This document shows positions 9,637 through 25,537 of a stretch of DNA of 28,744 nt, piece after piece. The notes beneath the pieces were generated by a model. That model did no database searches and was not told the origin of the DNA. It saw only the letters and a list, made by a program, of their open reading frames with translations. Made by a program: the position numbers and the translations under genes. Numbering within the stretch: the first letter of the stretch is position 1; every line of letters begins with the position of its first letter. Source of the DNA: a virus; the IMG/VR virus record IMGVR_UViG_3300027861_000150, positions 1-28,744 of that record; one strand, 5' to 3'.

Positions 9637-9772
9637 TCTCTTGGAGTTTAAAGTAGTTCTTAAATTCGGTTAAGTTCTGTGGCACTTTATACTTGCCCTT
9701 TGCAAATTGAGTCAACTGACCGCCATCGTGCCAATCGTCTGTTTTTAGTAGTTCTATAATATTCTTTATCAT
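9629..9772 (-). CDS. Small protein, 47 aa, between tail protein and tape measure
   Basis: ATG at 9772 shares a base with the TAA of the preceding 844-aa tail gene (TAATG). The TGA at 9629 overlaps the tape measure start by 8 nt. The product (MIKNIIELLKTDDWHDGGQL...YFKLQENG) is predicted to be helical with no membrane segment. The coupled boundaries on both sides strongly support translation. Small genes at this location in siphophages can be tail chaperones or tip factors; I cannot assign this one. Confidence 0.65.
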   Translation of the reverse strand: MIKNIIELLKTDDWHDGGQLTQFAKGKYKVPQNLTEFKNYFKLQENG

Positions 9773-12306
9773 TAGTCCACAAGTGTTAAAAGTTCAAACA
9801 TAGCTTCGCCTGTCGTTAGGTTGAGCCGCATATTATTTATCGTGTATTTCTTGGCGCTTATCGTCAGCACATCATTGACCTTAATCTCTAACATTAGATG
9901 CAATGGCAATATTGCTTTCAACATTGTCCTACGCATTGACAAATCGTATAGGTCAGTTATGTAATCTTCCCAGAATGATTTGTAAATCGTTGGACTTGTC
10001 GCTGTATCTGTTTCCAAAGTAAACGGATTCACTTCCGCGCCAAAATTCAAACTTTGAGTATAGGTGTTATCCTTGTCGTTGTATTGATAACAAACATTAT
10101 ACTGAGTGTGCTTATCTGCTCCATAAGCCTCGTTTGCATAAAAATCTCTAAACGAAAACTCTGTCTCTCCAACGGTTGCGAGATTTTGAGTTGCTCCTCT
10201 GTAAAACATAACAGTACCTCCACCTATCGGCGTGAAGTTTTTATCAATGTAGTGGCAAACCATCAATTGACTTAGAAACTGTGAATCGCTTATTTGTGGT
10301 ATGTAGTTAGTTAACCTTGACCAGCTTGGATTCTCGAATGGAACTTCCAATGCAAATTTTTCTGAACTTATAGCATCTCCAAAGCTGTCTCTAATTTTAG
10401 TAATTGAATCACCGTATCCAATGCCAGCGTGAATTTGTGCAAAGTTTTGACCAATTACTGATTCGGTTGGTTCAAAATTAAATTTCAATTCATTGTATAG
10501 TTCAGCAGGCTGGACATTAACCTCATCCATATCGACATACTTTGTAATATCTACGTTGCTACCTAATGCTTTCCAATCATCAAAAGTTTCTACTTGAAAA
10601 GTGCTGCCATCAACAGGTAATATCACGAGATTAAACATCTGAATAATTCCTTGCAGCCAATCAATAATCATCTGGTCTGGTAGACCTCCATCAATACTTA
10701 AACTCTCGCCTGTCAAGCTATCGGTATAGGAATAATTGAAATACCTAAAGTCGCAAGTGGATGAGGTGTCCATCTCTTGGTATGTATTTGATACTGAAAA
10801 ATTTAAGTAAGTTGTGTCGCTGGCTATCGTCCAATTGAACAACTCAGGAAAATTGGACTTGACATAAAACTTTAGGTTTCTATCTGTGCCTTGATTTGGT
10901 ATCACAAAGCTATGACCTAACTCTCTGCCAGCATCAAAGTAAACCGTTTCAAAAACTGCGCTTGTATCAATATCATAAGCCACCAGCTTCACCTTTGGCA
11001 TTGGTAAAGTGTCATTTACTGCATCTAACAATGATTGCAATACGTTTATACCTACAACCACGACCACTTGACCGCTATTCGCAGGCACATTCAATACGCC
11101 TGTGCTTGTGTTATAATTTGGGTTTCCTATCAAAGTGCCGCCTGTAATCTGGACATAATCCATATTGTAATGGTCTCCGAAGCCTTCGTATCGGTTAGAC
11201 CATAGATACAAGTCTTGCCAAGCATCGCTCGCCCAAAAACCGCCTGTGAATGAAACGGAGTATTTCGATTCTATCGCAGTCAAAACTGTGTCAGCAGAAA
11301 TAGCTGGCTTCAATTCATACTTCAAACCGCCTTGAGCCGAATACGCATACTTTACTATGGCTGAATACACAACGCCTCCAGCCTCCATTGATACGCTAAT
11401 GTCCAACTCCCAATCACAATTAGGATAGTCGTAAAAGGCTGGAAATATATATTTTGGCGGTACGCTTCTATTTACAGTTACAAAGCCAGCGCTTGTTCCT
11501 GTGCCGACAATATTGCCAACAGTAGCAAATCCATCATTGACATCGTAAAACTTCATACTCCAAGAAACAGGCTTCGCCATTCTCATATTCCAAATGAAAT
11601 TATCTGAGCCAGATGCGCTTGCAAACTGATTGAAATAATATAATTCACTATTGTATATTTCCTTAACAGTTCCTCCATCAACGTCTGACTGAATACTGAC
11701 ATCGTAAGGAATTAACGCCAATCGTTTATCAAGTTGTGTGATAATATTACCTGTGTACGGCTTGGTGTTTATTGAATTGTAAATACCATTACCTACGCCT
11801 TGTAGATTCCAATTTCTGCTTGATGTTGCTAATGGTACAAATTTGCTACCAGCGCCTACTGTGTTTTCAATTGCATCATCAAAAGTATCGTAGCGCAGCT
11901 TTAATTCCTCATTTGTTCCAAGTTCTGGAATAGTGTCCTTTCCAAAAATGTCAGTTAGGTTAGTCATTTCGCTGAAGAATTCAACCTCGTAAAAATCAAT
12001 GCTTCCGTTCTTTAATACTGCGCGTTTGAGCCAAATATAACCGCTTCTAAAAGGTAAGGTGTTTATGTCTATTCGTGCAGCTTTTTTGGTCGCAGGATTG
12101 AAGCCTGTTGCAATACTCTCGTCATACCAATGAGACATCACAATGTTGTTCTGTTTTGATGCTGGAATCGTAAATGATTGTGTGAAATCAGAAAAGACTT
12201 TGCCTAAATCTCGAAAGTCCTTAACAGTTCGGTTCATCTGGATATTCTCATCTTCAAATAAATCAAGCCTATCATCACCAATATAAACTTCAACATTCAA
12301 CCTCAT
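9772..12306 (-). CDS. Large tail protein (tail tip or baseplate-like)
   Basis: This 844-aa protein begins MRLNVEVYIGDDRLDLFEDE and continues with FRDLGKVFSDFTQSFTIPAS, a pattern shared with large tail proteins next to the tape measure in Bacteroidetes siphophages. It is beta-rich with many Asn, Tyr and Asp and no catalytic motif that I recognise. The C-terminus (VLTISAKKYTINNMRLNLTTGEAMFELLTL) looks like a gp27/Dit-like beta region, which suggests a distal-tail or tail-tip hub, but this is weak. Start ATG follows a non-coding repeat element at 12.31-12.38 kb. Confidence 0.65.
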   Translation of the reverse strand: MRLNVEVYIGDDRLDLFEDENIQMNRTVKDFRDLGKVFSDFTQSFTIPASKQNNIVMSHWYDESIATGFNPATKKAARIDINTLPFRSGYIWLKRAVLKNGSIDFYEVEFFSEMTNLTDIFGKDTIPELGTNEELKLRYDTFDDAIENTVGAGSKFVPLATSSRNWNLQGVGNGIYNSINTKPYTGNIITQLDKRLALIPYDVSIQSDVDGGTVKEIYNSELYYFNQFASASGSDNFIWNMRMAKPVSWSMKFYDVNDGFATVGNIVGTGTSAGFVTVNRSVPPKYIFPAFYDYPNCDWELDISVSMEAGGVVYSAIVKYAYSAQGGLKYELKPAISADTVLTAIESKYSVSFTGGFWASDAWQDLYLWSNRYEGFGDHYNMDYVQITGGTLIGNPNYNTSTGVLNVPANSGQVVVVVGINVLQSLLDAVNDTLPMPKVKLVAYDIDTSAVFETVYFDAGRELGHSFVIPNQGTDRNLKFYVKSNFPELFNWTIASDTTYLNFSVSNTYQEMDTSSTCDFRYFNYSYTDSLTGESLSIDGGLPDQMIIDWLQGIIQMFNLVILPVDGSTFQVETFDDWKALGSNVDITKYVDMDEVNVQPAELYNELKFNFEPTESVIGQNFAQIHAGIGYGDSITKIRDSFGDAISSEKFALEVPFENPSWSRLTNYIPQISDSQFLSQLMVCHYIDKNFTPIGGGTVMFYRGATQNLATVGETEFSFRDFYANEAYGADKHTQYNVCYQYNDKDNTYTQSLNFGAEVNPFTLETDTATSPTIYKSFWEDYITDLYDLSMRRTMLKAILPLHLMLEIKVNDVLTISAKKYTINNMRLNLTTGEAMFELLTLVD

Positions 12307-12310
12307 AATT

Positions 12311-12380
12311 ATCTTGTCTTATCTTGTCTTATCTTGTCTTGTGGCATTGCGAAATGTATGCGACCGCAATGCGACCGCAT
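12311..12380. other. Ori-like composite repeat element, site B
   Basis: Between two tail genes the plus strand shows three exact copies of ATCTTGTCTT (12311..12340), then GGCATTGC (12343..12350), seven bases, and two ATGCGACCGC boxes 11 bp apart (12358 and 12369). Inside the DUF4373 initiator gene the same order recurs: pyrimidine tract, GGCATTGC, N7, ATGCGGTCGCAT. The boxes are near-palindromic. This is a candidate initiator-binding or origin sequence. Alternatives are a packaging or regulatory site. Confidence 0.6.
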
Positions 12381-12405
12381 AAACAAACTTTCAACTGCTT
12401 GATTA

Positions 12406-14088
12406 TCAGACCACATCATTCAATTCGTTGTAAGCAAAGTCAAAGGTCAACGCGTAATTTATCAACTTATCGTTTACAGATTTCTTAAACTCAACTTGGT
12501 TGGTTTGGATTGTTACAGGAGTAAACACATCGTCAATAATTAGCACAATGCTTTCGCTCAAAAGTATTTCTTCAAGGAGTAAACTAAACGACTCATTTAC
12601 AAATCCTGTATTGACAATAATAGACTTGAATCCGTTTACATTATATCTCAGCTTTTGCGCAGCATTAAGATTGTATGTGTACGCATTATCCACAACTTCA
12701 CCAATGTTTCTTTTGTATTTACTTTCGGTTGTTGACATCTGTGTCATTGACTTTTTCAAGAAACTGAAGCTATCCCAAAAACCAAACTTGTTTACAAATA
12801 GGCAATCAATCACTTCGTATTTTGGCTCGCAGATGATTTCATATCTCAAAACACCTTGAGCATTGACAGATGCTAAATCATTTTGTGCTGTTTCATATGG
12901 GCTTCCTAAATCCTCTCTTGCTACAAAGTGACCAACTCTCAGATAATCAAATCCATCTATCCAATTATTACACAGATTCTTTTTGCCGATAGGTAGATAA
13001 GTAACCGACTGCTCAACTTTATCAATCATATAATCTGACGGCAATATCTCTATATCAAATATATTATTGACTGTAACAGAACTAGCTGCGTTTGGCTGAA
13101 ACCATAACCACTTAACAGTATTATCGTAGTTAGGATGAGGGCCAGCTTCTGCTGCTCCACATTTGATACGACCTCTTGTAGGCACATCAGGATTATTTCT
13201 ATCAAACTCGCCTGTGAATATTGGTAGAATTGTATAACTATTCTGACCCATCTGACGATAGCAATCTGTTGCCATTATCGTGACATCGTCTTGCTTGTTT
13301 ACTGTTGGTGTCCATTGCACAGAGCCATACGCTCCTGAACCGCCTGAAGATGGTAAAAAGTTTACGCCATCTTTAAATCCACCATATCCAAAGTTTGCTG
13401 TGTAATGTTCTTCTGTTGGTGATGGGTCATCTCCTCCCTCAACAATTATTTCTTTATCTACCTCGATAAAAAGAATCTCATCTGCTTGCGCTGAATTGTT
13501 GTGGGCGAATACGATTGGATTCACCGCATTTGTGGTTGTTGTCATACAATAAAACACATTATTTCCTTCGCCATAATCAAACACAATAGACGAAGAAGTA
13601 AACGATAGAACTGTGACATCCCAAGTCGCTTCTGCATAACTGCTATCGCAAGGAGAACCACCTGTGCCAGAAAACTGAGGCGTTGTTACATACCATTTAT
13701 CGCCAACTTTTAAATTACAAAAGCTGCTAGTGCTAATATCAACAGTTAAATACCGACCTCTTTCTGCGATTGGATTTGAATTGACTGAAATATCTGTGTT
13801 GTCGCTCAATGAAAAGTAACCATACTTAATGTATTGGTCATAATGATGGTCAAGGAAATCAGATGCCAAAGGTGCAATATCAAACACAATTATACCATCA
13901 ACTGCATTGGTTTTTGACAGCGTGTACGTTTTTAAAACATTGCCTGTAACGGCTGACGCTCGGCTGCCATTCTTAATCTTAACGCTGAGAGATGCGCTTT
14001 GAATTGTCGTGCCTGTCGGTGGTACGCAGTTAATAAAGAACGGTGACCTTGTTCTGACAGGTCTATGATTTTTTAGTGCTGTTGGCAT
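12406..14088 (-). CDS. Tail protein (large, beta-rich, unknown exact role)
   Basis: This 560-aa protein starts MPTALKNHRPVRTRSPFFINC and contains VSLSV-like beta segments, several Asp/Asn-rich loops and a C-terminal region with LNAAQKLRYNVNGFKSIIVNTG and YALTFDFAYNELND. The pattern is shared with tail proteins that precede the tip protein in related Bacteroidetes phages. Function could be distal tail or adaptor; I cannot decide. An exact DnaA-box sequence (TTATCCACA, 12686..12694 on the plus strand) falls in the gene. It overlaps the head-tail gene by 26 nt. Confidence 0.65.
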   Translation of the reverse strand: MPTALKNHRPVRTRSPFFINCVPPTGTTIQSASLSVKIKNGSRASAVTGNVLKTYTLSKTNAVDGIIVFDIAPLASDFLDHHYDQYIKYGYFSLSDNTDISVNSNPIAERGRYLTVDISTSSFCNLKVGDKWYVTTPQFSGTGGSPCDSSYAEATWDVTVLSFTSSSIVFDYGEGNNVFYCMTTTTNAVNPIVFAHNNSAQADEILFIEVDKEIIVEGGDDPSPTEEHYTANFGYGGFKDGVNFLPSSGGSGAYGSVQWTPTVNKQDDVTIMATDCYRQMGQNSYTILPIFTGEFDRNNPDVPTRGRIKCGAAEAGPHPNYDNTVKWLWFQPNAASSVTVNNIFDIEILPSDYMIDKVEQSVTYLPIGKKNLCNNWIDGFDYLRVGHFVAREDLGSPYETAQNDLASVNAQGVLRYEIICEPKYEVIDCLFVNKFGFWDSFSFLKKSMTQMSTTESKYKRNIGEVVDNAYTYNLNAAQKLRYNVNGFKSIIVNTGFVNESFSLLLEEILLSESIVLIIDDVFTPVTIQTNQVEFKKSVNDKLINYALTFDFAYNELNDVV

Positions 14089-14653
14089 TGAGTAGGTCTA
14101 TTTGTGATTCAATATAATCTATATTATCTTGCGCAATGGCTTCTTGAAGTTGACTGAATAGTTTTTCCTCTTGGCTATCATAAGCATCCGTGAAGAAGTT
14201 GGTTGCTGGTATTCCGTACTTTTTAATCTTGCGATTGATTACATACGCTAATCCTTTTATTGCTGTGGCTTTTTGTTCAGCATTTTTAAAGGTTTTAAAC
14301 CTACCTGTTTTTAAATCTCTAATTCGTAATGGCTTTTTCTTAATCCAATCAATCAAGACTTGCGGAGGAACGCCTTTACCTGATCGCCTTCCTTTATCTA
14401 CATTGAATCCATACTCCAACATCTTGAAGATTATGAAGCCTTTGCTGAACCTTCCATCTTTAGTGGTTGTCTTTAATTCAGATGTAATTGAATTTCGGAG
14501 ATTGCCGCTATTATCAATGCGCTTCTTGTAGCTTTTACCGCGTGAATTTTTGGCGGTGTAGGTTTTACCTACGTTGATTTTAGCTAATCGAACCACGTTA
14601 TCAGCGAAGTCAGCTAAGACTTTATCTCTTGCTCCTTTTACTCTGCCAGCCAT
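14063..14653 (-). CDS. HK97 gp10-like head-tail or tail-completion protein
   Basis: At 196 aa it has a basic N-terminal part with NVGKTYTAKN, a central EYGFNVDKGRRSGKGVPP, then IDWIKKKPLRIRD and IPATNFFTDAY. This ordered pattern (VDxGRRxGKxVP, then KPxNFFxDA) is typical of gp10-like connector proteins that attach tails to heads. It lies between two small genes sharing 1-nt and 26-nt overlaps, as in HK97-type connector clusters. The C-terminal extension (NIDYIESQIDLLNAN) is species-specific. Confident on class, less so on exact role. Confidence 0.75.
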   Translation of the reverse strand: MAGRVKGARDKVLADFADNVVRLAKINVGKTYTAKNSRGKSYKKRIDNSGNLRNSITSELKTTTKDGRFSKGFIIFKMLEYGFNVDKGRRSGKGVPPQVLIDWIKKKPLRIRDLKTGRFKTFKNAEQKATAIKGLAYVINRKIKKYGIPATNFFTDAYDSQEEKLFSQLQEAIAQDNIDYIESQIDLLNANSTKKS

Positions 14654-15117
14654 CAGATGCAGATTTCTGTATTCGGTACGTCAATAGCAATGTCGATTGC
14701 CCAACCAGCAAGCAGATTTTCAAACCTATCTTGAAAAGGCGTTGCAGTTACTGAATCAGTCAGTTGAAAGTTGTTGCTGAAAGCTGTGCCTCTTCTTAGT
14801 TGCTCGACTAATCTATTACAAACTTGAAGCTGAGTATTCCAGATATCTTGCAAATTATCCATTCCGTAATACGGCTCAGTCTCATTTCTAAGTTGGCTTT
14901 TATTGATGTCCACAACATCCATACAGATGACTGTGAAGTTCAAGGTCATTGTCGAGCCATTTAAAGACGTATCGCCAACGATAATGTGAGCCAATGGAAA
15001 AATACTTTGCTTCGCTAAATCAGCCTCGCTAACGTCTCCTATCGTCACCACGTTTACATTATTATCTGCAATCAATAAGTCGTGTAGCTTTTGCGTTACT
15101 GTATAAAATTGTCTCAT
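14653..15117 (-). CDS. Tail completion/terminator-like protein
   Basis: This 154-aa protein (MRQFYTVTQKLHDLLIADNNVN) carries the segment IFPLAHIIVGDTSLNGSTMT followed by TVICMDVVD. That pattern, small alpha/beta with a conserved Leu/Pro strand, resembles tail-terminator proteins of Bacteroidetes siphophages. The end overlaps the gp10-like start by one base. The start overlaps the downstream-frame chaperone stop by 4 nt (ATGA). Assignment is by position and pattern and is tentative. Confidence 0.6.
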   Translation of the reverse strand: MRQFYTVTQKLHDLLIADNNVNVVTIGDVSEADLAKQSIFPLAHIIVGDTSLNGSTMTLNFTVICMDVVDINKSQLRNETEPYYGMDNLQDIWNTQLQVCNRLVEQLRRGTAFSNNFQLTDSVTATPFQDRFENLLAGWAIDIAIDVPNTEICI

Positions 15118-15413
15118 CCTCTTTGCTTGCGTTTTATTTCGTTGCTTTCTATTTCGTTTTTTTGCTTGTCAAAGGTCAATTTAAGCAGACATTGATGGAG
15201 TGCCAATTTTGTGACTGCATCAATTCGAGTGACGCTTCCATCTGCGAGATGAACGATGGACTGATACCATCCCCATCGCTGTCCAAACTGTGCTCGCTCT
15301 CCATATTCGTTGTCATCAACTCCTCCTGTAAATAGGTCTTCATATCGGTCAGCAATTCTTTTCCTAAATTCCAAAAAAAAAGCATCGCGCCAAGTGCAGT
15401 CTCTAAATCGCAA
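15114..15413 (-). CDS. Tail assembly chaperone, -1 frame extension (probably made by frameshifting)
   Basis: This 99-aa frame overlaps the upstream chaperone by 238 nt. It has no ATG at all; the only early initiators are TTG codons (15413, 15374). Its C-terminal half (FGQRWGWYQSIVHLADGSVTR, then ALHQCLLKLTFDKQKNEIE) matches a conserved Bacteroidetes phage domain, so it is surely translated. The most economical way is -1 slippage in the nine-T run at 15381..15373 of the upstream gene, giving a 252-aa fusion as in the lambda G/G-T pair. Independent start at TTG is the alternative. It ends with ATGA overlap into the next gene. Confidence 0.75.
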   Translation of the reverse strand: MRFRDCTWRDAFFLEFRKRIADRYEDLFTGGVDDNEYGERAQFGQRWGWYQSIVHLADGSVTRIDAVTKLALHQCLLKLTFDKQKNEIESNEIKRKQRG

Positions 15414-15871
15414 TCCAGAAAGAACTCAGCATACTTGTCAGAGCCTTCGTAATCTTCGATTAGGTATGTTTCCTTAACCTTCAAGGTGACAGGTCTGTAA
15501 AGGACAGCCATTGCCTTGTGATACGTAGTTGGTGACTTCATATAATTTTCTAAATCCACATACTCGCCCAGACTAATGTCATCCAGCTTCGGTATGAAAC
15601 CAAAGTCAGTATCTCCAATCTTAATTCTGTTTCTGAATGTTGGCTTCTGTCCGAACACATCTTGCAGCATCTGGACAACGACATCGTATTGCGTCAGGCT
15701 CAGTTTCTGCAAGTCCTCATAGCTGACGTTGCAGAATATGCTGACCATCTTCATCGTCACAAACTCACTTTCTTGAGCATCCTTATTCGCATCCAAGATT
15801 TTTTGATATGCGATGTAGTCCTTTAGTGGAATGTCCTTGAGACTTGCTGGAACTTGAAATTTGACTTTCAT
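15176..15871 (-). CDS. Tail assembly chaperone, main product
   Basis: The 231-aa product starts at ATG 15871 (MKVKFQVPASLKDIPLKDYI), chosen because the late-promoter-like motif ends five bases before it. The upstream in-frame extension lies in a promoter. Residues about 30-166 form a helical core ending ALGAMLFFWNLGKELL. Position before gp10-like and tail genes and a slippery nine-T run at codons 163-167 fit the lambda gpG chaperone, which coats the tape measure during tail assembly. After codon 166 a -1 shift reads a conserved domain. The final 35 residues in this frame are less convincing. Confidence 0.7.
   Translation of the reverse strand: MKVKFQVPASLKDIPLKDYIAYQKILDANKDAQESEFVTMKMVSIFCNVSYEDLQKLSLTQYDVVVQMLQDVFGQKPTFRNRIKIGDTDFGFIPKLDDISLGEYVDLENYMKSPTTYHKAMAVLYRPVTLKVKETYLIEDYEGSDKYAEFFLDCDLETALGAMLFFWNLGKELLTDMKTYLQEELMTTNMESEHSLDSDGDGISPSFISQMEASLELMQSQNWHSINVCLN
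15373..15381 (-). other. Candidate -1 ribosomal frameshift site (nine-T run)
   Basis: On the coding strand the chaperone frame reads ATG CTT TTT TTT TGG. This contains the heptamer T-TTT-TTT in the correct phase for tandem -1 slippage, after which reading continues TTG GAA into the overlapping frame. Both P-site and A-site tRNAs can re-pair perfectly. No downstream pseudoknot was identified by eye. The homopolymer could also be an assembly error, which is why it should be checked. Confidence 0.7.
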
Positions 15872-15901
15872 AATATATAAACGTATTTGGTTGGTTTTGT
15901 A
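15872..15901 (-). promoter_or_regulatory. Candidate phage late promoter (ECF-type), copy 4
   Basis: On the minus strand TAC at 15901..15899, 15 bases, CGTTTAT at 15883..15877, five bases and the chaperone ATG. Three of the four copies have AAC here; this one has TAC. It lies directly behind a host-type box, so this gene may have both early and late promoters. Confidence 0.55.
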
Positions 15902-15908
15902 CCTCACG

Positions 15909-15916
15909 CAAATATA
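15909..15916 (-). promoter_or_regulatory. Host-type -7 box TATATTTG before tail chaperone
   Basis: TATATTTG on the minus strand fits TAnnTTTG. It lies 37 bases before the chaperone ATG and directly after a terminator. No clear TTG was found 19-22 bases upstream, so strength is uncertain. Confidence 0.45.
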
Positions 15917-15920
15917 GGGC

Positions 15921-15947
15921 ATAAAAAAAGCCCCATCTCTGAGGCTT
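15921..15947 (-). terminator. Rho-independent terminator after the 68-aa cassette gene
   Basis: On the minus strand AAGCC pairs with GGCTT (extended by CTC/GAG pairing inside), followed by seven T residues. It closes the small promoter-driven gene that ends at 15975 and precedes the tail operon promoters. Confidence 0.75.
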
Positions 15948-15974
15948 GTGTTTTTACTGTTTTAAGTTTACGAG

Positions 15975-16181
15975 TCATAATATAATTATTTGCGCTGTTT
16001 GGTTTTTTTCTTCGTAAGACCCAAACATTAACAGATTACTAATCTTCATTTCAGTTTCCTTTAAAGACCACCACTTGTCAGACGTTTCATCCACTTCATT
16101 TAATTGGTCAAATACATCAACTCTATTCTCTCTAAGTTGTGAGTCAATCGCTTTTTGTTGTTGTTCTGTGTAAGTTCTCAT
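15975..16181 (-). CDS. Small protein, 68 aa, promoter-driven cassette gene 3
   Basis: ATG at 16181 is chosen because TATATTTG (16211..16204) and a CTTATCAAACAAACA leader lie in front; the longer frame would begin in the promoter. The product (MRTYTEQQQKAIDSQLRENR...) is helical and acidic (two helices, with Trp-Trp in the middle). No family recognised. It sits between terminase and tail genes with its own promoter and terminator, an insertion that interrupts a normally continuous late block. It is moron-like, with the same promoter design as the genes at 1662 and 1343. Confidence 0.65.
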   Translation of the reverse strand: MRTYTEQQQKAIDSQLRENRVDVFDQLNEVDETSDKWWSLKETEMKISNLLMFGSYEEKNQTAQIIIL

Positions 16182-16203
16182 AGTTTCTGTTTGTTTGATA
16201 AGG

Positions 16204-16254
16204 CAAATATAACAATATTCTGTTAATAAACACAATAACTTCAAAATTATTTTT
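16204..16254 (-). promoter_or_regulatory. Host-type promoter of the 68-aa cassette gene
   Basis: TATATTTG at 16211..16204 with TTG 21 bases upstream (16235..16233) and an A/T-rich block AAAAATAATTTT next to the terminase stop. The same block and leader type are present upstream of the promoter at 1.7 kb, so the two cassettes share an origin or were selected for the same promoter. Confidence 0.7.
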
Positions 16255-17419
16255 ATCTGATGCTGTAACTTCCATAGTTCGGATTTGCCAACCTATTCCA
16301 AACTGCATAGCGCACCGCATCAATCGCGTGATTGAAATTGTCCACAGGTTTGTTAAGCAGGTTGCCATTCTTGTCTTCAGTCCACTTGTAGTTTTGCAGT
16401 TCTTTGATTAGGTTCAAACTGTTGGCTGTGACCTTTAGTTCGTACCTCTTCAGCATATCAATGCCAGCCATAATACTGTCCGCACCTTTTGCTGTTGGTT
16501 TGACATTCCAACGTAGCCTGTGCAGTTCTTCGATTGACTTTGGCTCTGCCGAGTCAGCATAGATTACATCAAGCCTATTTAATTCTAATTCCTCAAACTT
16601 CTGAGCGATGTCTTGATTTGTTAGGTTGGTATGATATAGCAGTTCGTCAAGTATTAATTGATTGCCTTTCTTGTAGACCTTGACCAACGCTGTTGGGTCA
16701 TTCGTAAATCCAAAGTCCATTCCTGTCGATAGTAGCTGACCAGATACCTCTTGCACGATTCCAAACTGAAATATGGTTGCTCTGGACATTCCGCGCTCAC
16801 CAAGTCCATAGATGCGCCAATAATCTTCATCGGTTTCCTTGAGTCGTTCAATCTCGTGAATGATGCTTTCGTCAAGGTATGGATTGTCCTTGTATGTCGT
16901 TTGTAGAAAGGAACAGTCATCTCTAGGCACTACCTTATCATAAATCCAATGGAAGCTATCAGATGGATTGTAGTCGATTATGATGCGCCCTGTGGTTCTG
17001 AATAGTATCTGCTGCCAATCTTCCCAATAAAGTTCATTTGCCTCGTTTAGAAAGGCTAAATCACGCTTGCGACCTCGTATCTTCTGCGGCTGGTCTAAGC
17101 TGATAAACTCAATCAGGTTTCCGTTGAGATGGTATTCGCTATTGGATTTATTATGATACTGCTCGCTGTATAGATTGTGTTTGCGGAGGATGTCAAAAAA
17201 GTCGCGCATAACAGATGAGCGAACTGCTGGAAATGTCTTACGAGCAATCGTTATGGTTTTGCCTTTATTGCGATAGCAGTATTCAAATATTATCCAAAGC
17301 AGAATATTGTAAGTCTTGCCAGACCGAGTTCCGCCTTGCTCAACCATTATCTTTTTAGGCGACTTCCTGAGATGTGTATATACCTTATTTACCTGTATCG
17401 TCCCATTCGCCATCCTCAA
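16253..17419 (-). CDS. terL: Terminase large subunit
   Basis: TerL is the ATPase-nuclease that packages DNA into the prohead. Walker A is GGTRSGKT (residues 29-36) and Walker B lies in DLAFLNEANE (about 120-129). The nuclease domain has GMDFGF (about residue 234), YADSAEP (about 290) and HAIDAVRYAV (about 367), matching the RNase H-like acidic residues. The 388-aa length is normal for the family. The start ATG at 17419 overlaps terS by 35 nt; a second ATG two codons downstream is equally possible. The portal is at the far end of the late block and not beside this gene, which is unusual. Confidence 0.95.
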   Translation of the reverse strand: MRMANGTIQVNKVYTHLRKSPKKIMVEQGGTRSGKTYNILLWIIFEYCYRNKGKTITIARKTFPAVRSSVMRDFFDILRKHNLYSEQYHNKSNSEYHLNGNLIEFISLDQPQKIRGRKRDLAFLNEANELYWEDWQQILFRTTGRIIIDYNPSDSFHWIYDKVVPRDDCSFLQTTYKDNPYLDESIIHEIERLKETDEDYWRIYGLGERGMSRATIFQFGIVQEVSGQLLSTGMDFGFTNDPTALVKVYKKGNQLILDELLYHTNLTNQDIAQKFEELELNRLDVIYADSAEPKSIEELHRLRWNVKPTAKGADSIMAGIDMLKRYELKVTANSLNLIKELQNYKWTEDKNGNLLNKPVDNFNHAIDAVRYAVWNRLANPNYGSYSIR

Positions 17420-17738
17420 CTATTTGGAAGGTCTGAATACCTTCGTGTGAAATCTCCTGACGCTCAACGTATCCTCGCTTCTTACCTTTGGTTTTTAAGT
17501 AGAAAATTGTAGCAGCAGCCGAGCCGTCTTGTATTTGCTTGTGCAGTTGTGATTCGGCAAAGTCTAAAGCTACGTTTTCAATATCTGCAACTTGCTTGGC
17601 AAATTCTGCGTCTTCTTTTAGCCATTGGTAGAACGTAGTCCTTCCAACATCTGCTTTCTTACAAGCTGATGTCACTACTCCAAGCGAAGATTCCAAAGCT
17701 TCGATTACTGCCTTTTTATGTTGTTCTGTTTTGTTCAT
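17385..17738 (-). CDS. terS: Terminase small subunit
   Basis: TerS recognises packaging sites and loads TerL. ATG at 17738 overlaps the preceding stop by one base (TAATG); the longer upstream frame would add an unlikely peptide. The 117-aa protein has a helix-turn-helix (about residues 14-45, SACKKADVGRTTFYQWLKED) and a helical centre (ADIENVALDFAESQLHKQIQ), then KTKGKKRGYVERQEI, the TerS pattern of DUF-type Bacteroidetes phages. The stop lies inside terL. Confidence is high from motif plus position. Confidence 0.85.
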   Translation of the reverse strand: MNKTEQHKKAVIEALESSLGVVTSACKKADVGRTTFYQWLKEDAEFAKQVADIENVALDFAESQLHKQIQDGSAAATIFYLKTKGKKRGYVERQEISHEGIQTFQIVEDGEWDDTGK

Positions 17739-18163
17739 TACTTTTCTTCTTGATAGGTTGAATAAACTTGGTCTAAATCGTTGCGCCATTGCTCCCATTG
17801 TCTTGGTGTGCAGGTGCAAGGTTCGTGAAATCGATGGTCAAAAACAACCGCGTGAATCTGCGCAATTACAGGATAGACTTCTGTAAGGTATCTATGCTTC
17901 TCCTGCTTTGTTATGTCCTTGACCTTTGTCCATTGGTTATACTGAGCCTCAGACATACACTTAGCTGGCTTGTGTCTGTCGTATGGAAATAGCTTATTCA
18001 GTTTCTCCTTGCGAGCATCACATCCACAATCTTCGCCAGCCAACCACTTGACCGCCTTCTTGATTCCTGTGGCTTTTGTGACCTTCTCTATTGTATCTCC
18101 AAGTCCTTTACTCGGTGCTTTTTTTCGCCTCGTTGTAGGCTTCGTTGATTTCGCTCTTGGCAT
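17738..18163 (-). CDS. Conserved phage protein with DCGC motif upstream of terminase
   Basis: At 141 aa it begins with a basic tail (MPRAKSTKPTTRRKKAPSKG), then a GDTIEKVTKATGIKKAVKW helix and a Cys cluster (DCGCDARKEKLNKLF). Further Cys occur at CTC near residue 117. The pattern recurs between sigma/transcription genes and terS in Bacteroidetes phages. A DNA- or RNA-binding role is plausible from the basic tail and possible zinc site, but unproven. It overlaps the sigma gene by 56 nt and terS by 1 nt. Confidence 0.7.
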   Translation of the reverse strand: MPRAKSTKPTTRRKKAPSKGLGDTIEKVTKATGIKKAVKWLAGEDCGCDARKEKLNKLFPYDRHKPAKCMSEAQYNQWTKVKDITKQEKHRYLTEVYPVIAQIHAVVFDHRFHEPCTCTPRQWEQWRNDLDQVYSTYQEEK

Positions 18164-18632
18164 TTCTCAATGTGTTGAATATGGATGATGCGCTTATGCG
18201 CGTTTCTTTGGATAGTTTTCTGATGCTCAGTCCTTCGTTGTGATAGAGTTCAAACAGCTTCAAGTCGTACCAATTCATCTGGTCTTTTGCTTGCTCAACA
18301 GCGTCCAGCTTCTTCGTAAATTCTGTTTCAAATTCCATATCAATCTCTGATGCTTTCAATGCTCGAATTGATTCGATGCTTACCATCTGAGTTCGCTTCT
18401 GGATGCGCTGTAAATCAACTATTAAACTACGGATTATAGTATAAACGTAAAAACCAACGATTTGATTTGGATTTTTTTTGTCAATTAGCCTTTCTGGATT
18501 CTTGATTTGAGACAGCTTGATGTACATCTCTTGCACTATGTCTTCAGCATAATGTCCTGCGCCGAGATTAGATGCCATTTTCACCCAATCTTTATGACGT
18601 TCGGTCGTGTATGCAATGTCAAGCAGATTCAT
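18108..18632 (-). CDS. ECF-like RNA polymerase sigma factor
   Basis: The 174-aa product (start ATG 18632 preferred; TTG at 18647 also in frame) has a region-2-like segment HYAEDIVQEMYIKL followed by VGFYVYTIIRSLIVDLQR, then a linker and a region-4-like HTH (NEGLSIRKLSKETRISASSIFNTLRNAKSEI). Two-domain architecture and length fit ECF sigma factors. It is the last gene before the terminase block and lies in the early transcript, so it may direct late transcription. A motif resembling ECF promoters occurs upstream of four late genes. Host-sigma mimicry is the alternative. Confidence 0.8.
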   Translation of the reverse strand: MNLLDIAYTTERHKDWVKMASNLGAGHYAEDIVQEMYIKLSQIKNPERLIDKKNPNQIVGFYVYTIIRSLIVDLQRIQKRTQMVSIESIRALKASEIDMEFETEFTKKLDAVEQAKDQMNWYDLKLFELYHNEGLSIRKLSKETRISASSIFNTLRNAKSEINEAYNEAKKSTE

Positions 18633-18762
18633 TCCAAAAGATTTCAATTGCTAAAATGCCAATGAATATCTGAAAAGTGCATTCTACCTTATCCTCTTCG
18701 TCAAACGCGAAGTAATTAATGCCTAAAATAAACCCTTGTAACCACCCGAATGAAACTTCCAT
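18619..18762 (-). CDS. Small hydrophobic protein, 47 aa
   Basis: ATG at 18762 opens MEVSFGWLQGFILGINYFAFDEED, then a C-terminal hydrophobic helix (FQIFIGILAIEIFW). The product looks like one or two membrane segments around a polar turn. The MxxSFGxLQGFxLG start is a recurring pattern in short Bacteroidetes phage proteins, to my recollection. It overlaps the sigma gene by 14 nt, so the two are likely translated together. Function unknown; a membrane role is inferred from composition only. Confidence 0.6.
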   Translation of the reverse strand: MEVSFGWLQGFILGINYFAFDEEDKVECTFQIFIGILAIEIFWNESA

Positions 18763-18784
18763 TTACGCAATGATACGAAAAAAA

Positions 18785-18976
18785 TCAATCGATGGTTGCG
18801 TTGCGCAGTATTTTAAAGGCGTGATTTCGAACCGTTGACTGTTCATAAGACTCAAGAGCATTGAACTCCTTAGAACGGCTTAAATGGATTCCGTACTTCA
18901 AGACCAACTCAGCCGCCATTCGTGTATACTTAGAATGCCTCAAAATAATTTTGATTGTGGCGCAATTTTCAGCCAA
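18785..18976 (-). CDS. Small basic protein, 63 aa, TTG start
   Basis: The frame has no ATG at its beginning; TTG at 18976 overlaps the previous gene by 37 nt, while an internal ATG at codon 20 would give a 44-aa product. The sequence (ILRHSKYTRMAAELVLKYGIHLSRSKEF...) is basic and helical, with a plausible helix-turn-helix. No family recognised. Position between the coiled-coil gene and the 47-aa gene in the early unit suggests a regulatory or DNA-binding small protein; unproven. Confidence 0.5.
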   Translation of the reverse strand: MAENCATIKIILRHSKYTRMAAELVLKYGIHLSRSKEFNALESYEQSTVRNHAFKILRNATID

Positions 18977-19257
18977 GCGTCATCAGTAAGCTGGTCTTGC
19001 TTTTTGACATCTTCTTCGTAATCCAATTCAATCTCAGCATTGCCCATTTGACTGAACTTATCAATTTGCCTTTCTGCTGCCTCAACCCTGCCAAGCAGCT
19101 TCAGATTCTTCTCTCGCATTGTGCGTAATGCCACTTCTATGTTGTCGAAGTATTCAACAAACTTGTGATCAGGATTATTTGACAGAGTAGTGTTTTTCAT
19201 TATCGTCACTTGCATCAATGCTTTGACTGCGTCAAATTCTAATTCTATCATTTTCAT
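18940..19257 (-). CDS. Coiled-coil protein, 105 aa, unknown function
   Basis: ATG at 19257 overlaps the methyltransferase stop by 4 nt (ATGA). The product is strongly helical (VALRTMREKNLKLLGRVEAA, then RQIDKFSQMG) with an acidic C-terminus. No domain recognised. It belongs to the early/replication block by position and coupling. Confidence 0.6.
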   Translation of the reverse strand: MKMIELEFDAVKALMQVTIMKNTTLSNNPDHKFVEYFDNIEVALRTMREKNLKLLGRVEAAERQIDKFSQMGNAEIELDYEEDVKKQDQLTDDAWLKIAPQSKLF

Positions 19258-19910
19258 AAGTCAAAAATATCAAGTTGGTTTGGATTTTCTTTTTTTATAA
19301 TTCCTAACGCTGTTTCAAGTATAGTTCTGCCAGCTTCATAGTCCACTAGGTTACGAGCCATTTTATTTAGTCTTTGATTCCCTTTGTACTTTGTAAAATC
19401 ATAATCGTGAAACTCAGAAAGCTCTTTTACATTTCCTCGTTCTATCATATTGTTGAACATTTTTCTCTCACCTACATCATTTGGTAGATTAAAATTAGTC
19501 CAGTACATATGCCGACCTCTTTTGTGTCCTGGAATTAAAGGCTCATAAAATGGTATCACATTTTCAACTACATACTTGCCTTCAAAGTAATATTTCAAAA
19601 ATATAATTTCTTCATATAATGTTAAGCTAGGAAATACAGGTTTAAAGTTTTTTGTATTTTTCTGACTAATCCTTACTCTACTATGTGAAGGGCAAGGCGG
19701 TGAACTCCAAATGAAATCAAACTCTTTGTAATGGTCGAGCAAATATTGGTGTGCATCAGCAACTATTACGCTATCATTAGGAAATCGCTCTTGATATAAC
19801 CTTGCTAATTCAGGGTCAAGTTCAACGGCTACTACGTCAATGTTATCCGAAACTTCATCCCACTTGTAACGGTTACCGCCTAAGCAAGCATATAAATTTA
19901 ATATTTTCAT
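19254..19910 (-). CDS. C5 cytosine DNA methyltransferase-like protein
   Basis: The 218-aa protein has motif I-like LYACLGGNRYKW (6-17), an acidic VELDPELARLY (29-39) for SAM contact, motif IV SSPPCPSHS with the catalytic Cys at 73, and motif VI ENV (116-118). It is short for a C5 methylase and lacks an obvious target-recognition domain, so specificity may be poor or provided otherwise. No cognate endonuclease lies next to it, so it looks like an orphan methylase protecting phage DNA. The C-terminus has QLDIF (212-216), which matches the beta-clamp-binding consensus. It overlaps the neighbours by 4 nt on both sides. Confidence 0.8.
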   Translation of the reverse strand: MKILNLYACLGGNRYKWDEVSDNIDVVAVELDPELARLYQERFPNDSVIVADAHQYLLDHYKEFDFIWSSPPCPSHSRVRISQKNTKNFKPVFPSLTLYEEIIFLKYYFEGKYVVENVIPFYEPLIPGHKRGRHMYWTNFNLPNDVGERKMFNNMIERGNVKELSEFHDYDFTKYKGNQRLNKMARNLVDYEAGRTILETALGIIKKENPNQLDIFDL

Positions 19911-20905
19911 TTCTTAATACCTATTAAACCTTTCTTCATACCCAGCGAATCTACGTTGTAGTAACGCTGTTGTTTTCTATCGTAAAACAATCTGAACTTA
20001 CCTGTCTTGCCTACGCCTTTAGGCTTGGTCTTCTGGACATAAACATCTCGCACATTGAAGTAATTATCAACGCTGTGCTGCATCTCTGTATCTCCTTGAT
20101 TGGCAAGCTGAACTTGCTTAATTTGATGCGGCTCGTATAAAAGAATCATCTGATAACCTTTACGCCCGAATTGCTGACCATAAGCCCATTCGTCCTTCTT
20201 ATTAGGTGGAGTCCAGAAGTACCATTCACCATCATCATCCTTTTCACGCACCTCGTGTTTATCATTGGCGTGATTGGTTAGGATTGTCAAATAGTTCTTC
20301 TTCTTTGTCCAAGCGATAAGCACATCCAATTCGTTCTTGACTATGTTGGCTGTTTTACTTCCGCCTATCTCAATGTCTAATTCATTGAATGGGTCTATAA
20401 GCACTCCGTCAAACTTACCGCCAAGCCGATTCTCTTCGTAGTTGACCGCATCAAAGAAGTTGGTGATGTTCATCTGAAGGTCACTCAAGTTCTCTTTCCA
20501 ATGCTCGGTAGGGTCAAGTATTCGAAAGTGCTGGTTAAGCCAAAACATAATCTTATCAAGGCTCTCCTCAGAGATTGGATTGTCGCTATCGTTTTCAAGT
20601 CGTGCGCCTGATGATAGCTTTTCCACGAGCATCTCAATTATCTCGTATTTATCGCCTGTCTCTGGAGATAGTATAAGCCACTTCCATCCGTGCATCAGCG
20701 AAGCATTAAGGATTAAGTCAAAGGTAAATTCTGTTTTACCTGCTCCACCTACGCCAGCTATCATTATCGGATAGCCTTTTTTTAAGCTGATGTATTCGTT
20801 GGCATTCTGCCAAGCTGTATCAAGTCCTCGCTTACGGTTGGTTATCCTTCGATGCTTGATTTGGTTCAGCACCTGAAGAGGCGCTGTTGTCATTGGTTTG
20901 TTCAT
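19907..20905 (-). CDS. DnaB/RecA-type ATPase, probable replicative helicase
   Basis: The 332-aa product (start ATG 20905 preferred, alternatives 20956 and 20893) has Walker A GVGGAGKT (51-58) and Walker B-like FDGVLIDPFNEL (about 165-175), then TILTNHAND (sensor-like), GRKGYQMILLYE and VQKTKPKGVGKTGKF, the order of DnaB C-terminal helicase domains. A primase domain is absent. It probably relies on host primase and polymerase. It overlaps the preceding hypothetical gene by 74 nt and the methyltransferase by 4 nt. RadA-like recombinase is the alternative. Confidence 0.8.
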   Translation of the reverse strand: MNKPMTTAPLQVLNQIKHRRITNRKRGLDTAWQNANEYISLKKGYPIMIAGVGGAGKTEFTFDLILNASLMHGWKWLILSPETGDKYEIIEMLVEKLSSGARLENDSDNPISEESLDKIMFWLNQHFRILDPTEHWKENLSDLQMNITNFFDAVNYEENRLGGKFDGVLIDPFNELDIEIGGSKTANIVKNELDVLIAWTKKKNYLTILTNHANDKHEVREKDDDGEWYFWTPPNKKDEWAYGQQFGRKGYQMILLYEPHQIKQVQLANQGDTEMQHSVDNYFNVRDVYVQKTKPKGVGKTGKFRLFYDRKQQRYYNVDSLGMKKGLIGIKK

Positions 20906-21125
20906 CTGTAATTTGTTTGTATTGTTTAATGTATTCAAATATAAACTCTTTTGCATAATCGTTCTCGCAAAGGAATGCTCCGATTAGACTAAGACCTTGT
21001 TTGGTAAGCGCATTACATACCAGCTTATTCTTCCGAGCCATTATAATGATGTAGTTATCTGATTCGCTCAGTTGCTGCGCTAATGCTCTTCTCTTGAGCC
21101 TTGCGGTTATGATTGGATTATTCAT
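20832..21125 (-). CDS. Unknown protein, 97 aa, upstream of helicase
   Basis: The product (MNNPIITARLKRRALAQQLS...EYIKQYKQITDEQTNDN) is helical at the N-terminus with an acidic, disordered tail (NSASSGAEPNQASKDNQP). I recognise no domain. The helicase start lies inside its 3' part, so the two are coupled. Helicase-loader or accessory function is a guess from position only. Confidence 0.55.
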   Translation of the reverse strand: MNNPIITARLKRRALAQQLSESDNYIIIMARKNKLVCNALTKQGLSLIGAFLCENDYAKEFIFEYIKQYKQITDEQTNDNSASSGAEPNQASKDNQP

Positions 21126-21134
21126 AGGTTCTAG

Positions 21135-21500
21135 TTAATCTTCTAAAGATAAAAGAGTAATTAATTTTTCTTCAGTTATTTCTTCATTATTTAAATAGCA
21201 CTTGCCATCATCAAAATCTTTTTTCTCAAACACTATTAAATTAAAACCTAAATATGTCCATCCATCATCAATACCTCTTCTCATCCATTTGTTTAAATTT
21301 TGCCACATCATTTTCTGACCAATTCTTGGTTCACTATTTCTTGTTTTAATCTCTAACATCATTACTTTTTTGGTTTTCCAATTCCATAAGATAAAATCCA
21401 AATCGCTTGCTGAAAAACCTGTACTTGAATCTGGTAGTTTTTCTCTTATCCATTGACTAAATGTTAAACATCTTCTTCCTGTAATTTCTACTCGTGTCAT
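21135..21500 (-). CDS. PD-(D/E)XK nuclease-like protein
   Basis: This 121-aa protein contains SASDLDFILWNWKTKKVMML followed by EIKTRN, a match to the D...(E)xK core of PD-(D/E)XK nucleases, where the second half is LEIKTR (about residues 49-54). Downstream is QKMMWQNLNKW, a common helix after the core. The call is by pattern only. The DNA of this gene is visibly more A/T-rich than the replication genes on both sides, a possible sign of separate acquisition. It lies 7 bases after the initiator gene. A Holliday or restriction-type nuclease is possible. Confidence 0.6.
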   Translation of the reverse strand: MTRVEITGRRCLTFSQWIREKLPDSSTGFSASDLDFILWNWKTKKVMMLEIKTRNSEPRIGQKMMWQNLNKWMRRGIDDGWTYLGFNLIVFEKKDFDDGKCYLNNEEITEEKLITLLSLED

Positions 21501-21507
21501 AATTAAC

Positions 21508-22131
21508 TTAGAAGTCTTTAGATTGAGATTTGTCTAATTGATACTTGCCTTTAGGTTGGATGGTTTTTAGGTGAGGAATGACTCCATTGGCTTTGGACTT
21601 CCAAACCTTTATCGGTTTATTATATCCGTCCTTCCAGCCGTTCTCTATCCATTGGTCAAATTTAAGTTTTGCGTGTGCTGGGTCAACATCACCTTGCTTT
21701 GAGACGCAGTAATCAACAAACTCATCAACTGATGGTATAATCTTCTCTTCTCTCTTCTTCTCTTCTCTTATGGCATTGCCATCTTGATGCGGTCGCATTC
21801 CGGTCGCATTGCCACTCCATCTTTTCTTTGCATTGGCTGAATTCTTTGCTCGTGTTTCGCTGAATTCAGAAAGCTGGTCATCAAGGAATTTGATGCTAAT
21901 CAATTCATCTTCTAACTTAATGATTCCGCGATTATCTAATTCAACCAAAGCCTCTTCATTGCCTCCGCATATCTTCTGTAAGGCAAGTTCATAAGGTAAA
22001 TCTCCGACTCTTATCCAATAGATGCAGCACAGGTCGATGAAGATTGCGCGAGTATTTAGGCAACACATCTGTATGTTGCCGTTATCCCACTCGCTGGGTT
22101 CAAACTTAAAGTAAGGTAGTTCTTTTGCCAT
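21508..22131 (-). CDS. DUF4373 (Lin1244/Lin1753-like) replication initiator
   Basis: Residues 4-90 match the DUF4373 N-terminal winged-helix domain: LPYFKFEPSEWDNGNIQMC, then RAIFIDLCCIYWIRVGDLP, FLDDQLSEFSETRAK. Such proteins are phage/plasmid replication initiators. The linker (residues 105-130) reads NATGMRPHQDGNAIREEKKR and is encoded by repeated boxes, GGCATTGC and a pyrimidine-rich tract. That is the typical location of origin iterons within initiator genes. The C-terminus (FVDYCVSKQGDVDPAHAKLK) is a helical DnaD-like region. Host-type promoter box at 22149 precedes it. Confidence 0.8.
   Translation of the reverse strand: MAKELPYFKFEPSEWDNGNIQMCCLNTRAIFIDLCCIYWIRVGDLPYELALQKICGGNEEALVELDNRGIIKLEDELISIKFLDDQLSEFSETRAKNSANAKKRWSGNATGMRPHQDGNAIREEKKREEKIIPSVDEFVDYCVSKQGDVDPAHAKLKFDQWIENGWKDGYNKPIKVWKSKANGVIPHLKTIQPKGKYQLDKSQSKDF
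21741..21818. other. Ori-like composite repeat element, site A, inside initiator gene
   Basis: Plus-strand order is a pyrimidine-only tract of TCTTC/TCTCTT repeats (21741..21769), GGCATTGC (21772..21779), seven bases, ATGCGGTCGCAT (21787..21798), then CCGGTCGCATTG (21800..21811). Site B at 12.35 kb has the same order and the same seven-base gap. On the coding strand the same DNA encodes the initiator linker. It fits an origin with AT-free purine/pyrimidine strand asymmetry and iterons, as in lambda O. Functional evidence is lacking. Confidence 0.6.
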
Positions 22132-22148: not shown

Positions 22149-22181
22149 CAAAGTTAATTTAAAATTGATAACTACCGGCAA
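22149..22181 (-). promoter_or_regulatory. Host-type promoter before the initiator gene
   Basis: TAACTTTG at 22156..22149 fits TAnnTTTG, with TTG 22 bases upstream (22181..22179). The leader CAACAAACAAACAGACAATG resembles the leaders of the cassette promoters. It lies just after the DnaA-like gene stop. Confidence 0.55.
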
Positions 22182-22641
22182 GCAAATCTTTTGCCTGCTC
22201 CGCCAGCTTGTACTTATCGGTTTCTGTATTGGTGTTCTTTGCCGTCCAATAATCATCTAAGACAGCTTTTACGCTGTGAATCATTGTCGCGTGATTCTTT
22301 GGCTTGCCATTGGAAATCATCTGACCAATGCGAGTTAAAGAGTAGTGCGTATTATCTTTGATCAGGTATATTGCCACTTGCCTTGCAACCACAACTGACC
22401 TATGCCGGTTAGCACTTAGCATAGTAGAAACAGGAACTCCTGACAGTTCTGAAACTGTGTCAATAATGCGCTCCGCTTTTACCTTGTCGCTTACCGATTC
22501 ATCATAGATGACTTTCGTATGCGTAAGCAATTCAAGCTGTTGCGTTATGGCTTCGTAATTTAATCTCGCATCTCGCAAAGCCTCCGCGAAATGCGGAAGC
22601 TGGATGCGTAGTTCTTGAATCTCATCAGAAAGGTAGGTCAT
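22159..22641 (-). CDS. DnaA domain IV-like DNA-binding protein
   Basis: In this 160-aa protein residues about 65-130 match the DnaA C-terminal DNA-binding domain: LSGVPVSTMLSANRHRSVVV, then ARQVAIYLIKD, TRIGQMISNGKPKNHATMIH (the DHTTV-like signature), and SVKAVLDDY. No AAA+ part is present. The N-terminal 60 residues are helical (IQELRIQLPHFAEALRD). It may bind DnaA boxes and either load or block initiation. Position between SSB-like and initiator genes supports replication. It overlaps the SSB-like stop by 17 nt. Confidence 0.75.
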   Translation of the reverse strand: MTYLSDEIQELRIQLPHFAEALRDARLNYEAITQQLELLTHTKVIYDESVSDKVKAERIIDTVSELSGVPVSTMLSANRHRSVVVARQVAIYLIKDNTHYSLTRIGQMISNGKPKNHATMIHSVKAVLDDYWTAKNTNTETDKYKLAEQAKDLLAGSYQF

Positions 22642-22910: not shown

Positions 22911-23441
22911 TTAAATTGATTTTAGTTTTTGAATTAACGTAGGTGAGATGTCGTACTTCTGTTTGATTATATCAACATCACCACCATTCATTATATACTC
23001 GCGCGCCTTTTGCCAAGCGTCTGTGTTAGCTTTAATTTGCGGCTTTTTAGCTGCTTGAGTTTGAGATTTATTTTGCTCTCCTGCGGCATCAATATCTTTG
23101 TCTGTGACTAATCCAAGCGCGCTACTCAGAGCGTATCTTCGAATGTAAGTGATGGCACTTCCCAAGACTTGGAAATCATTCATACCTTTTAGTTGCACTC
23201 CTTGCGGAATATTGGCTCGTGATTCTCGCATTTCACCGCTTTCGATATGAAAGATTGTGGTAATAATACTATCCTCGTGCAGTTCCTGCATAAATCCAAT
23301 CCCGTACTTCTTCATTAGCGGATTAATTACTTTGAATATAGCAGGAAGGTCGGCATATGTGTATCCGTAGCCTTGCGTTCCTTTATGGATTGTAGGACAT
23401 TCCTGTTGGAATGCCGCGACTGATTTTAATAGATTTTTCAT
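22911..23441 (-). CDS. erf: ERF-family single-strand annealing protein
   Basis: This 176-aa product has the ERF pattern: GYGYTYADLPAIFKVINPLM, then KYGIGFMQEL, and GSAITYIRRYALSSALGLVT followed by DKDIDAAGE. ERF proteins anneal complementary single strands and support recombination-dependent replication. The C-terminal part (WQKAREYIMNGGDVDIIKQK) is a DNA-binding-like helical region. It starts 3 bases after the preceding gene and is followed by the SSB-like gene, a common pairing. Confidence 0.85.
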   Translation of the reverse strand: MKNLLKSVAAFQQECPTIHKGTQGYGYTYADLPAIFKVINPLMKKYGIGFMQELHEDSIITTIFHIESGEMRESRANIPQGVQLKGMNDFQVLGSAITYIRRYALSSALGLVTDKDIDAAGEQNKSQTQAAKKPQIKANTDAWQKAREYIMNGGDVDIIKQKYDISPTLIQKLKSI

Positions 23442-24820: not shown

Positions 24821-25537
24821 CTATAAATTCATCAATAAATTGATTGGTGTTTTTCCGTTGTCCAAAACAACCATACAACCGATTGCAGGTTTTTTACCAT
24901 ACTTGGCATATGCCATTGCATAGGCTTTGTGATTGATGCCGCATCCGACTTGACTTCCAAAGATTTTAAAGTTTTGTCCAACTACAAATTCGGTATAAGC
25001 CTGAGTATGTAAATGACCTTGTATCACGGATTGAAGGTCAGCCTTGCATTTACTTCGTGCCGTTCCGCCTTCACCGTGTACATATTGAACATCATCGATT
25101 ACCAATCGTTCCACAAAATTCCAATCCGGAACTTCCAGGACTTCCTTGTAGGACTTAATCCACTTGCTTGGTATTGCTGAAGTCTGCGCCTTACGCATTA
25201 TCAACCTATCGTGATTTCCAATGATTACATCTGCTTTTGGAAACGCGTCTCGCCACTTAGCTATCTTTTTTATCGCAAGGTCAAGTTCCTGACCACCGCC
25301 AAGACCGTCTGCATCAGTTTCGTGGTAACTCGAATAGTGGTTATCGATGACATCGCCTATAAATATTGTCCGATTCGTGTTGAACTTTTCGGACTGCTCA
25401 ATACAAAACTCTAAATAACCATCTAAGCAGAACGGTTCGTGTAGGTCACCTATGACAAGGATGCGATTCTCTTTGGATTTCAAGCCGCTCACCAGCTTGT
25501 TTAGTCCGTTACTCAGTCTTGGTCGGTTGGTGTTCAT
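24821..25537 (-). CDS. Calcineurin-like metallophosphoesterase
   Basis: The 238-aa protein has all five metal-binding motifs: GDLHEPF (30-36), GDVIDNH, GNHDR, VHGEG and GHLHTQA. This marks an active two-metal phosphoesterase. In phages, such enzymes may act as nuclease, DNA end-processing (SbcD-like) or nucleotide phosphatase; no subunit partner (SbcC) is encoded here. It overlaps the RusA-like gene by 29 nt. Confidence 0.85.
   Translation of the reverse strand: MNTNRPRLSNGLNKLVSGLKSKENRILVIGDLHEPFCLDGYLEFCIEQSEKFNTNRTIFIGDVIDNHYSSYHETDADGLGGGQELDLAIKKIAKWRDAFPKADVIIGNHDRLIMRKAQTSAIPSKWIKSYKEVLEVPDWNFVERLVIDDVQYVHGEGGTARSKCKADLQSVIQGHLHTQAYTEFVVGQNFKIFGSQVGCGINHKAYAMAYAKYGKKPAIGCMVVLDNGKTPINLLMNL

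Follow-up and report, generated by a model that had tools for sequence, protein, structure and literature searches.

The viral genome analysed here, a DNA stretch of 28,744 nucleotides (the window), contains two copies of one replication-origin-like composite element. Site A is located within the gene of a putative replication initiator, and site B, 9.4 kb downstream in gene direction, in the tail-gene region beyond the terminase genes. The genome (~29 kb) is near complete, as the two ends of the window are bridged in the related record G001 across about 65 bp, and its main genes are all encoded on one strand. A near-match search of a phage collection with a 10.5-kb region retrieved no match. 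Judged from cultured relatives, i.e. phages of Flavobacterium, Leeuwenhoekiella, and Cellulophaga, and not from a known host, the phage is of Bacteroidota type.

The preliminary description of this DNA reported, on the plus strand of both sites, a pyrimidine-rich tract followed by spaced boxes, and composites are indeed present in the sequence at the positions claimed. At both sites, GGCATTGC is followed after exactly seven bases by a box, namely ATGCGGTCGCA at A (21787-21797) and ATGCGACCGCA at B (12358-12368), and a second related box lies 11 bp beyond the first. No third copy of the box had been noticed by eye. The pattern GGCATTGC-N7-ATGCGNNCGCA was seen twice in the window against 6e-7 occurrences expected from base composition, and the sequence GCGGTCGCAT, present at one position in A and at two in B, is absent from the rest of the window. 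These elements are real, but their natural unit is a tandem 11-bp iteron, with about three units per site, on the minus (coding) strand. Read in this direction, both copies consist, in identical order, of three phased 11-bp quasi-palindromic iterons (GCRNNYGCAWT) and an abutting purine-rich tract of AAGAN pentamers: GCGACCGGAAT-GCGACCGCATC-AAGATGGCAAT-GCCATAAGAGAAGAG... at site A and GCGGTCGCATT-GCGGTCGCATA-CATTTCGCAAT-GCCACAAGACAAGAT... at site B. The coordinates are listed in Table 1.

Table 1. Components of the two composite elements and associated genes in the window.
Feature	Position	Strand	Basis
Site A, composite element (iterons and purine tract) within the initiator gene	21739..21818	-	sequence, profile searches
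Site A iteron 1, GCGACCGGAAT	21797..21807	-	
Site A iteron 2, GCGACCGCATC	21786..21796	-	
Site A iteron 3 (degenerate), AAGATGGCAAT, then GCC	21775..21785	-	
Site A purine-rich tract, ATAAGAGAAGAGAAGAAGAGAGAAGAGAAGA	21741..21771	-	
Site B, composite element (second copy) within the 99-bp gap 12307-12405	12309..12380	-	sequence, profile searches
Site B iteron 1, GCGGTCGCATT	12368..12378	-	
Site B iteron 2, GCGGTCGCATA	12357..12367	-	
Site B iteron 3 (degenerate), CATTTCGCAAT, then GCC	12346..12356	-	
Site B purine-rich tract, AAGAC/AAGAT pentamers (10-bp repeat x3)	12309..12342	-	
Initiator gene, 207 aa, winged-helix, DUF1376-like/primosomal PHROG; low-confidence linker encoded by site A	21508..22131	-	
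Tail-region gene, 844 aa; start codon just 3' of site B	9772..12306	-	
DnaA C-terminal-domain-like protein; adjoins the initiator gene directly upstream	22159..22641	-	
DnaB/primase-helicase-like ATPase	19907..20956	-	
ERF single-strand annealing protein (functional counterpart of SPP1 gp35)	22911..23441	-	
RusA Holliday junction resolvase (functional counterpart of SPP1 gp44)	25509..25931	-	
Terminase genes	16253-17819		

A profile was trained on 54 in-gene elements from which the clade of the window had been excluded. Its full-length matches in the window were A (E 3.6e-11) and B (E 1.7e-6) only, and a sequence model of in-gene elements built with a covariance tool gave E-values of 3.9e-18 and 6.6e-13, respectively. 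In single-strand folding, A scored higher (z -3.58) than B, which gave a modest z of -1.55. Palindromic repeats would be expected to give such scores, and a hairpin reading was set aside. The GC skew, a check proposed earlier, is of no help in this respect: it is uniformly negative across the window, with no switch at A or B.

The initiator had been assigned to the DUF4373 family, a name that finds no support. The protein encoded in the window has no Pfam match, its relatives match DUF1376 weakly and below the cut-off, and PHROGs classifies it as a primosomal protein. The AlphaFold model comprises a winged helix, a long helix (residues 81-106), a low-confidence linker, which is the part encoded by site A, and a C-terminal helical domain. 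The top Foldseek match of this model was DnaD-N (probability 0.97, E 0.12; Z 6.7), level with unrelated winged helices, as were the Rep initiators with a Z of about 6. A PDB sequence search using the initiator alignment yielded no match. In literature linking DUF1376 or DUF4373 to phage replication or origins, covered mostly without subscription journals, no description of the element was found. Next to the initiator gene, members of the clade and the phage Arctus_1 carry a DnaA-like gene, an arrangement not found in most relatives.

The motif search of relatives suggested in the preliminary description was carried out on initiator genes taken from viral contigs and complete phages, all but few of which are metagenomic fragments. 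Site A was recovered by profile search in about 70 related initiator genes, gapless and in an identical 11-bp phase. The self-match at lag 11 reaches 0.58 across 15 non-redundant in-gene elements, 0.62 for site B, and 0.48 across 30 more distant elements with other iteron sequences; control pieces from elsewhere in these genes give 0.28. Since 11 is not a multiple of 3, a repeated peptide cannot be the source of the repeat. In six genes of the clade, the protein sequence varies more across the element than outside it (9 of 27 identical positions versus 115 of 179), while synonymous third positions are invariant in 5 of 7 element codons versus 27 of 108 codons elsewhere (p 0.017). This combination of a variable peptide and conserved synonymous positions indicates constraint at the DNA level. 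Relatives thus keep the DNA boxes while the linker peptide changes; the reverse case of a retained linker with lost boxes, taken earlier as weakening the origin idea, was not encountered.

Site B is confined to the clade of the window, where it occupies the same position, just upstream of the same tail-region gene, in all 8 records that hold the region (G000, G001, G002, G004, G036, G037, G038, and G039). A shifting position, which had been named as a point against an origin, was therefore not observed. Four records contain both sites. The model scan for second copies covered 37 whole records and two complete phages, with the fragment G039 added later, and revealed a second full-length copy in this clade only. 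Among 69 full-length profile matches in pattern-fetched loci, no convincing second copy was found outside the clade; the matches without a recognisable MAKELPY-type start were B sites of the clade, truncations at contig ends, and other or unconfirmed ORFs. A weak third match in G042 was discounted as lying inside a coding gene. The complete phages morran9-1 and Arctus_1 have no site B, which is accordingly not essential for this type of initiator. The B array of G037 and G038 has one iteron more than that of G002. Comparison of the close relatives L028/L029 and L019/L030 shows such a change in copy number, of exactly one 11-bp unit, in site B upstream of the tail gene.

Two types of iterons can be distinguished. 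Arrays of GCGnnCGC usually have GCC in front of the tract, and those of GCAnnTGC usually have GCT. In 59 of 59 distinct initiators, the type agrees with the identity of residue 97 (window numbering), which is located in the long helix after the wing: N or K occurs with GCG (44/44), R with GCA (10/10), and A with mixed arrays (5/5). In held-out loci fetched afterwards, N agreed in 6 of 6 cases, R in 2 of 2, and A in 1 of 2, the array of L181 (A97) being not clearly mixed. K97 was inconsistent, as L254 is of the GCA type and L079 and L086 are of the GCG type. Mapped on a tree, each trait changes 6 times with only 2 well-supported independent pairs, which is not significant alone; the association is therefore strong and its phylogenetic replication weak.

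The clade itself offers an informative case. G000, G001, and G002 have N97 and GCG arrays at A and B alike. G004 (locus L005) possesses the sole R97 of the clade, and both its in-gene array (GCAAGTGC) and its array at B (GCACTTGC) are of the GCA type. Site B is non-coding and yet switches together with residue 97 and site A, which links the initiator to both sites. Exact sequences of A and B do not always match, since the iteron centre in G001 is GAGC in A and GGTC in B. From this covariation we strongly infer that the initiator is the reader, and both A and B are very probably recognised by the phage's own protein. The earlier suggestion of in-gene iterons as known for lambda O is supported as well, because the boxes outlast the linker peptide and track residue 97.

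Two well-studied phages provide the closest parallels. The lambda origin consists of iterons in gene O and an A+T-rich tract whose purines lie almost entirely on one strand (PMC5043065). The same features are seen here: phased iterons within the initiator coding sequence, an adjacent strand-asymmetric purine tract, known as a sequence feature only, and constraint at the DNA level. The iterons differ in length (11 bp versus 19 bp in lambda), no family match ties the window initiator to O, and lambda as described has one such origin (PMC5043065). In the Bacillus phage SPP1, gene 38 contains oriL, and oriR lies at a distance of 12-13 kb in a gap of the late region. The replisome organizer gp38 (G38P) binds both; oriR-bound gp38 has been proposed to stall forks and to trigger recombination-dependent concatemer replication (PMC6316719, PMC3485210). 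The window likewise contains a repeat array in duplicate, in the initiator gene and, far off, in a gap between late structural genes (9.4 kb on about 29 kb versus 12-13 kb on 44 kb in SPP1). Direct repeats and an AT-rich region make up both SPP1 sites, and this phage has genes for an annealing protein and a Holliday junction resolvase, to which ERF and RusA of the window correspond; the DnaB-like ATPase of the window is a further counterpart of the SPP1 proteins. Binding and origin activity are proven in SPP1 and predicted for the sites described here; the iterons of the latter are 11-bp quasi-palindromes with a purine pentamer tract, and the host group is another one. Iteron plasmid origins with winged-helix Rep initiators share the tandem, helically phased iterons beside a melting region, and the winged-helix N domain of the initiator model weakly resembles DnaD-N and Rep initiators (middling, Z 6-7). 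They differ from the present case, in which one site is inside the initiator gene and the two sites are separated.

We consider it probable (about 0.72) that the phage's own initiator binds both arrays, A being an in-gene origin of the lambda O kind and B a second site in the late region comparable to that of SPP1. Given the lambda-like layout at A and the SPP1-like distant position of B, the primary origin is most likely A, with B as an additional site for the initiator. Site A would be the ancestral in-gene origin and site B a clade-specific second copy in a gap of the late gene cluster. The winged-helix domain of the initiator, together with the following helix, may bind each iteron. At A, the initiator would open the tract beside the iterons and load the phage helicase for early theta replication. 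Later, the initiator on B might act as a fork barrier, a second origin, or both, helping the switch to concatemer-producing replication, in which the ERF and RusA proteins would be used.

Other explanations of site B have to be weighed against this reading. One of them is a regulatory function, with no role in replication: B would be an operator for the initiator or a different phage protein, which would repress late expression or set its timing, or the purine tract would serve as a translation enhancer. The location is suggestive: in every member of the clade, B ends at most about 10 nt from the start codon, as an operator or a ribosome-binding region would. Such a function, however, would not require the tract in register, and B keeps the complete origin-like anatomy including this tract. 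Moreover, no element precedes homologues of the tail gene outside the clade (including the P12024L/S gap and G005), and around B in the window there is no terminator-like site and only a few weak promoter-like ones. A purely regulatory role is thus unlikely. It is still less probable that ectopic recombination left B behind as a fossil or selfish copy of A that has no present function. The two sites are alike over about 73 bp (77% for A of the window versus B of G001), and B is restricted to one clade; but a fossil does not explain why B has been kept at one position in 8 diverged records, with its phase intact and changing in step with A and residue 97, nor did any coding sequence flanking A come along with it.

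The DnaA C-terminal-domain-like protein, named earlier as a possible binding partner, could read the iterons in place of the initiator, as its gene adjoins that of the initiator and is present in the clade members carrying the region. We rejected this candidate, which has very little probability, on its distribution: most records with the element, among them the complete phage morran9-1, lack the gene, and it is a residue of the initiator that the iteron type tracks. Finally, the position of B in the late gene cluster could be that of a packaging (pac) or site-specific recombination signal. We regard this as extremely improbable, since B duplicates an in-gene element read by the initiator and is several kb distant from the terminase genes, and no relation to a recombinase was seen. 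The preliminary description had considered a second origin, a termination or loop site, and a packaging signal for B; sequence comparison favours a probable second site bound by the initiator, and nothing points to packaging.

A two-origin arrangement is already known experimentally from SPP1, whose second site has been suggested to set off the change from circle-to-circle to concatemer replication. In another phage group, an apparently independent case, with a clade that has B and relatives that do not, would allow a comparative test of this idea. For an initiator family that is uncharacterised, the link between residue 97 and the iterons yields a prediction at the level of a single residue, and with the in-gene signature origins can be located in many uncultured phage genomes. 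A more far-reaching model is tentative and, in our opinion, rather doubtful. It combines a recognition code at residue 97 (N reading GCG, R reading GCA, and A both), a broad Bacteroidota-type class with in-gene origins, and an SPP1-like second site, independently evolved among the tail genes of one clade, which would serve the concatemer switch as a late origin or by stalling forks in a programmed way.

Several observations were made in more distant records. L246, L262, L269, and similar distant initiators retain the 11-bp period and the AAGAG tract with wholly different iterons (e.g. GTTCAACAGAA), which suggests that a large reservoir of putative in-gene origins may exist. In many distant initiator genes, an iteron-only cluster without a purine tract is located ~180 bp upstream of A, in the part coding for the winged helix (L007, 5553-5589; L025, 14703-14740; L043, 10165-10201; and many others); this cluster has no match in the window. 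In L526 (1189-1917; record G042, element 37702-37772), the gene of an initiator of the MPKDTFYFSHDYNSRNDEKI type, Lin1244/DUF4373-like by eye, contains repeats resembling iterons together with a purine tract (AAGGAAAGGAAAGG). The architecture may therefore span initiator families. Around position 1500 of L523 (record G041), several perfect GCACAAGCAAT 11-bp iterons, in a copy number above the usual one, are followed by a GCTATAAGAGAAG tract.
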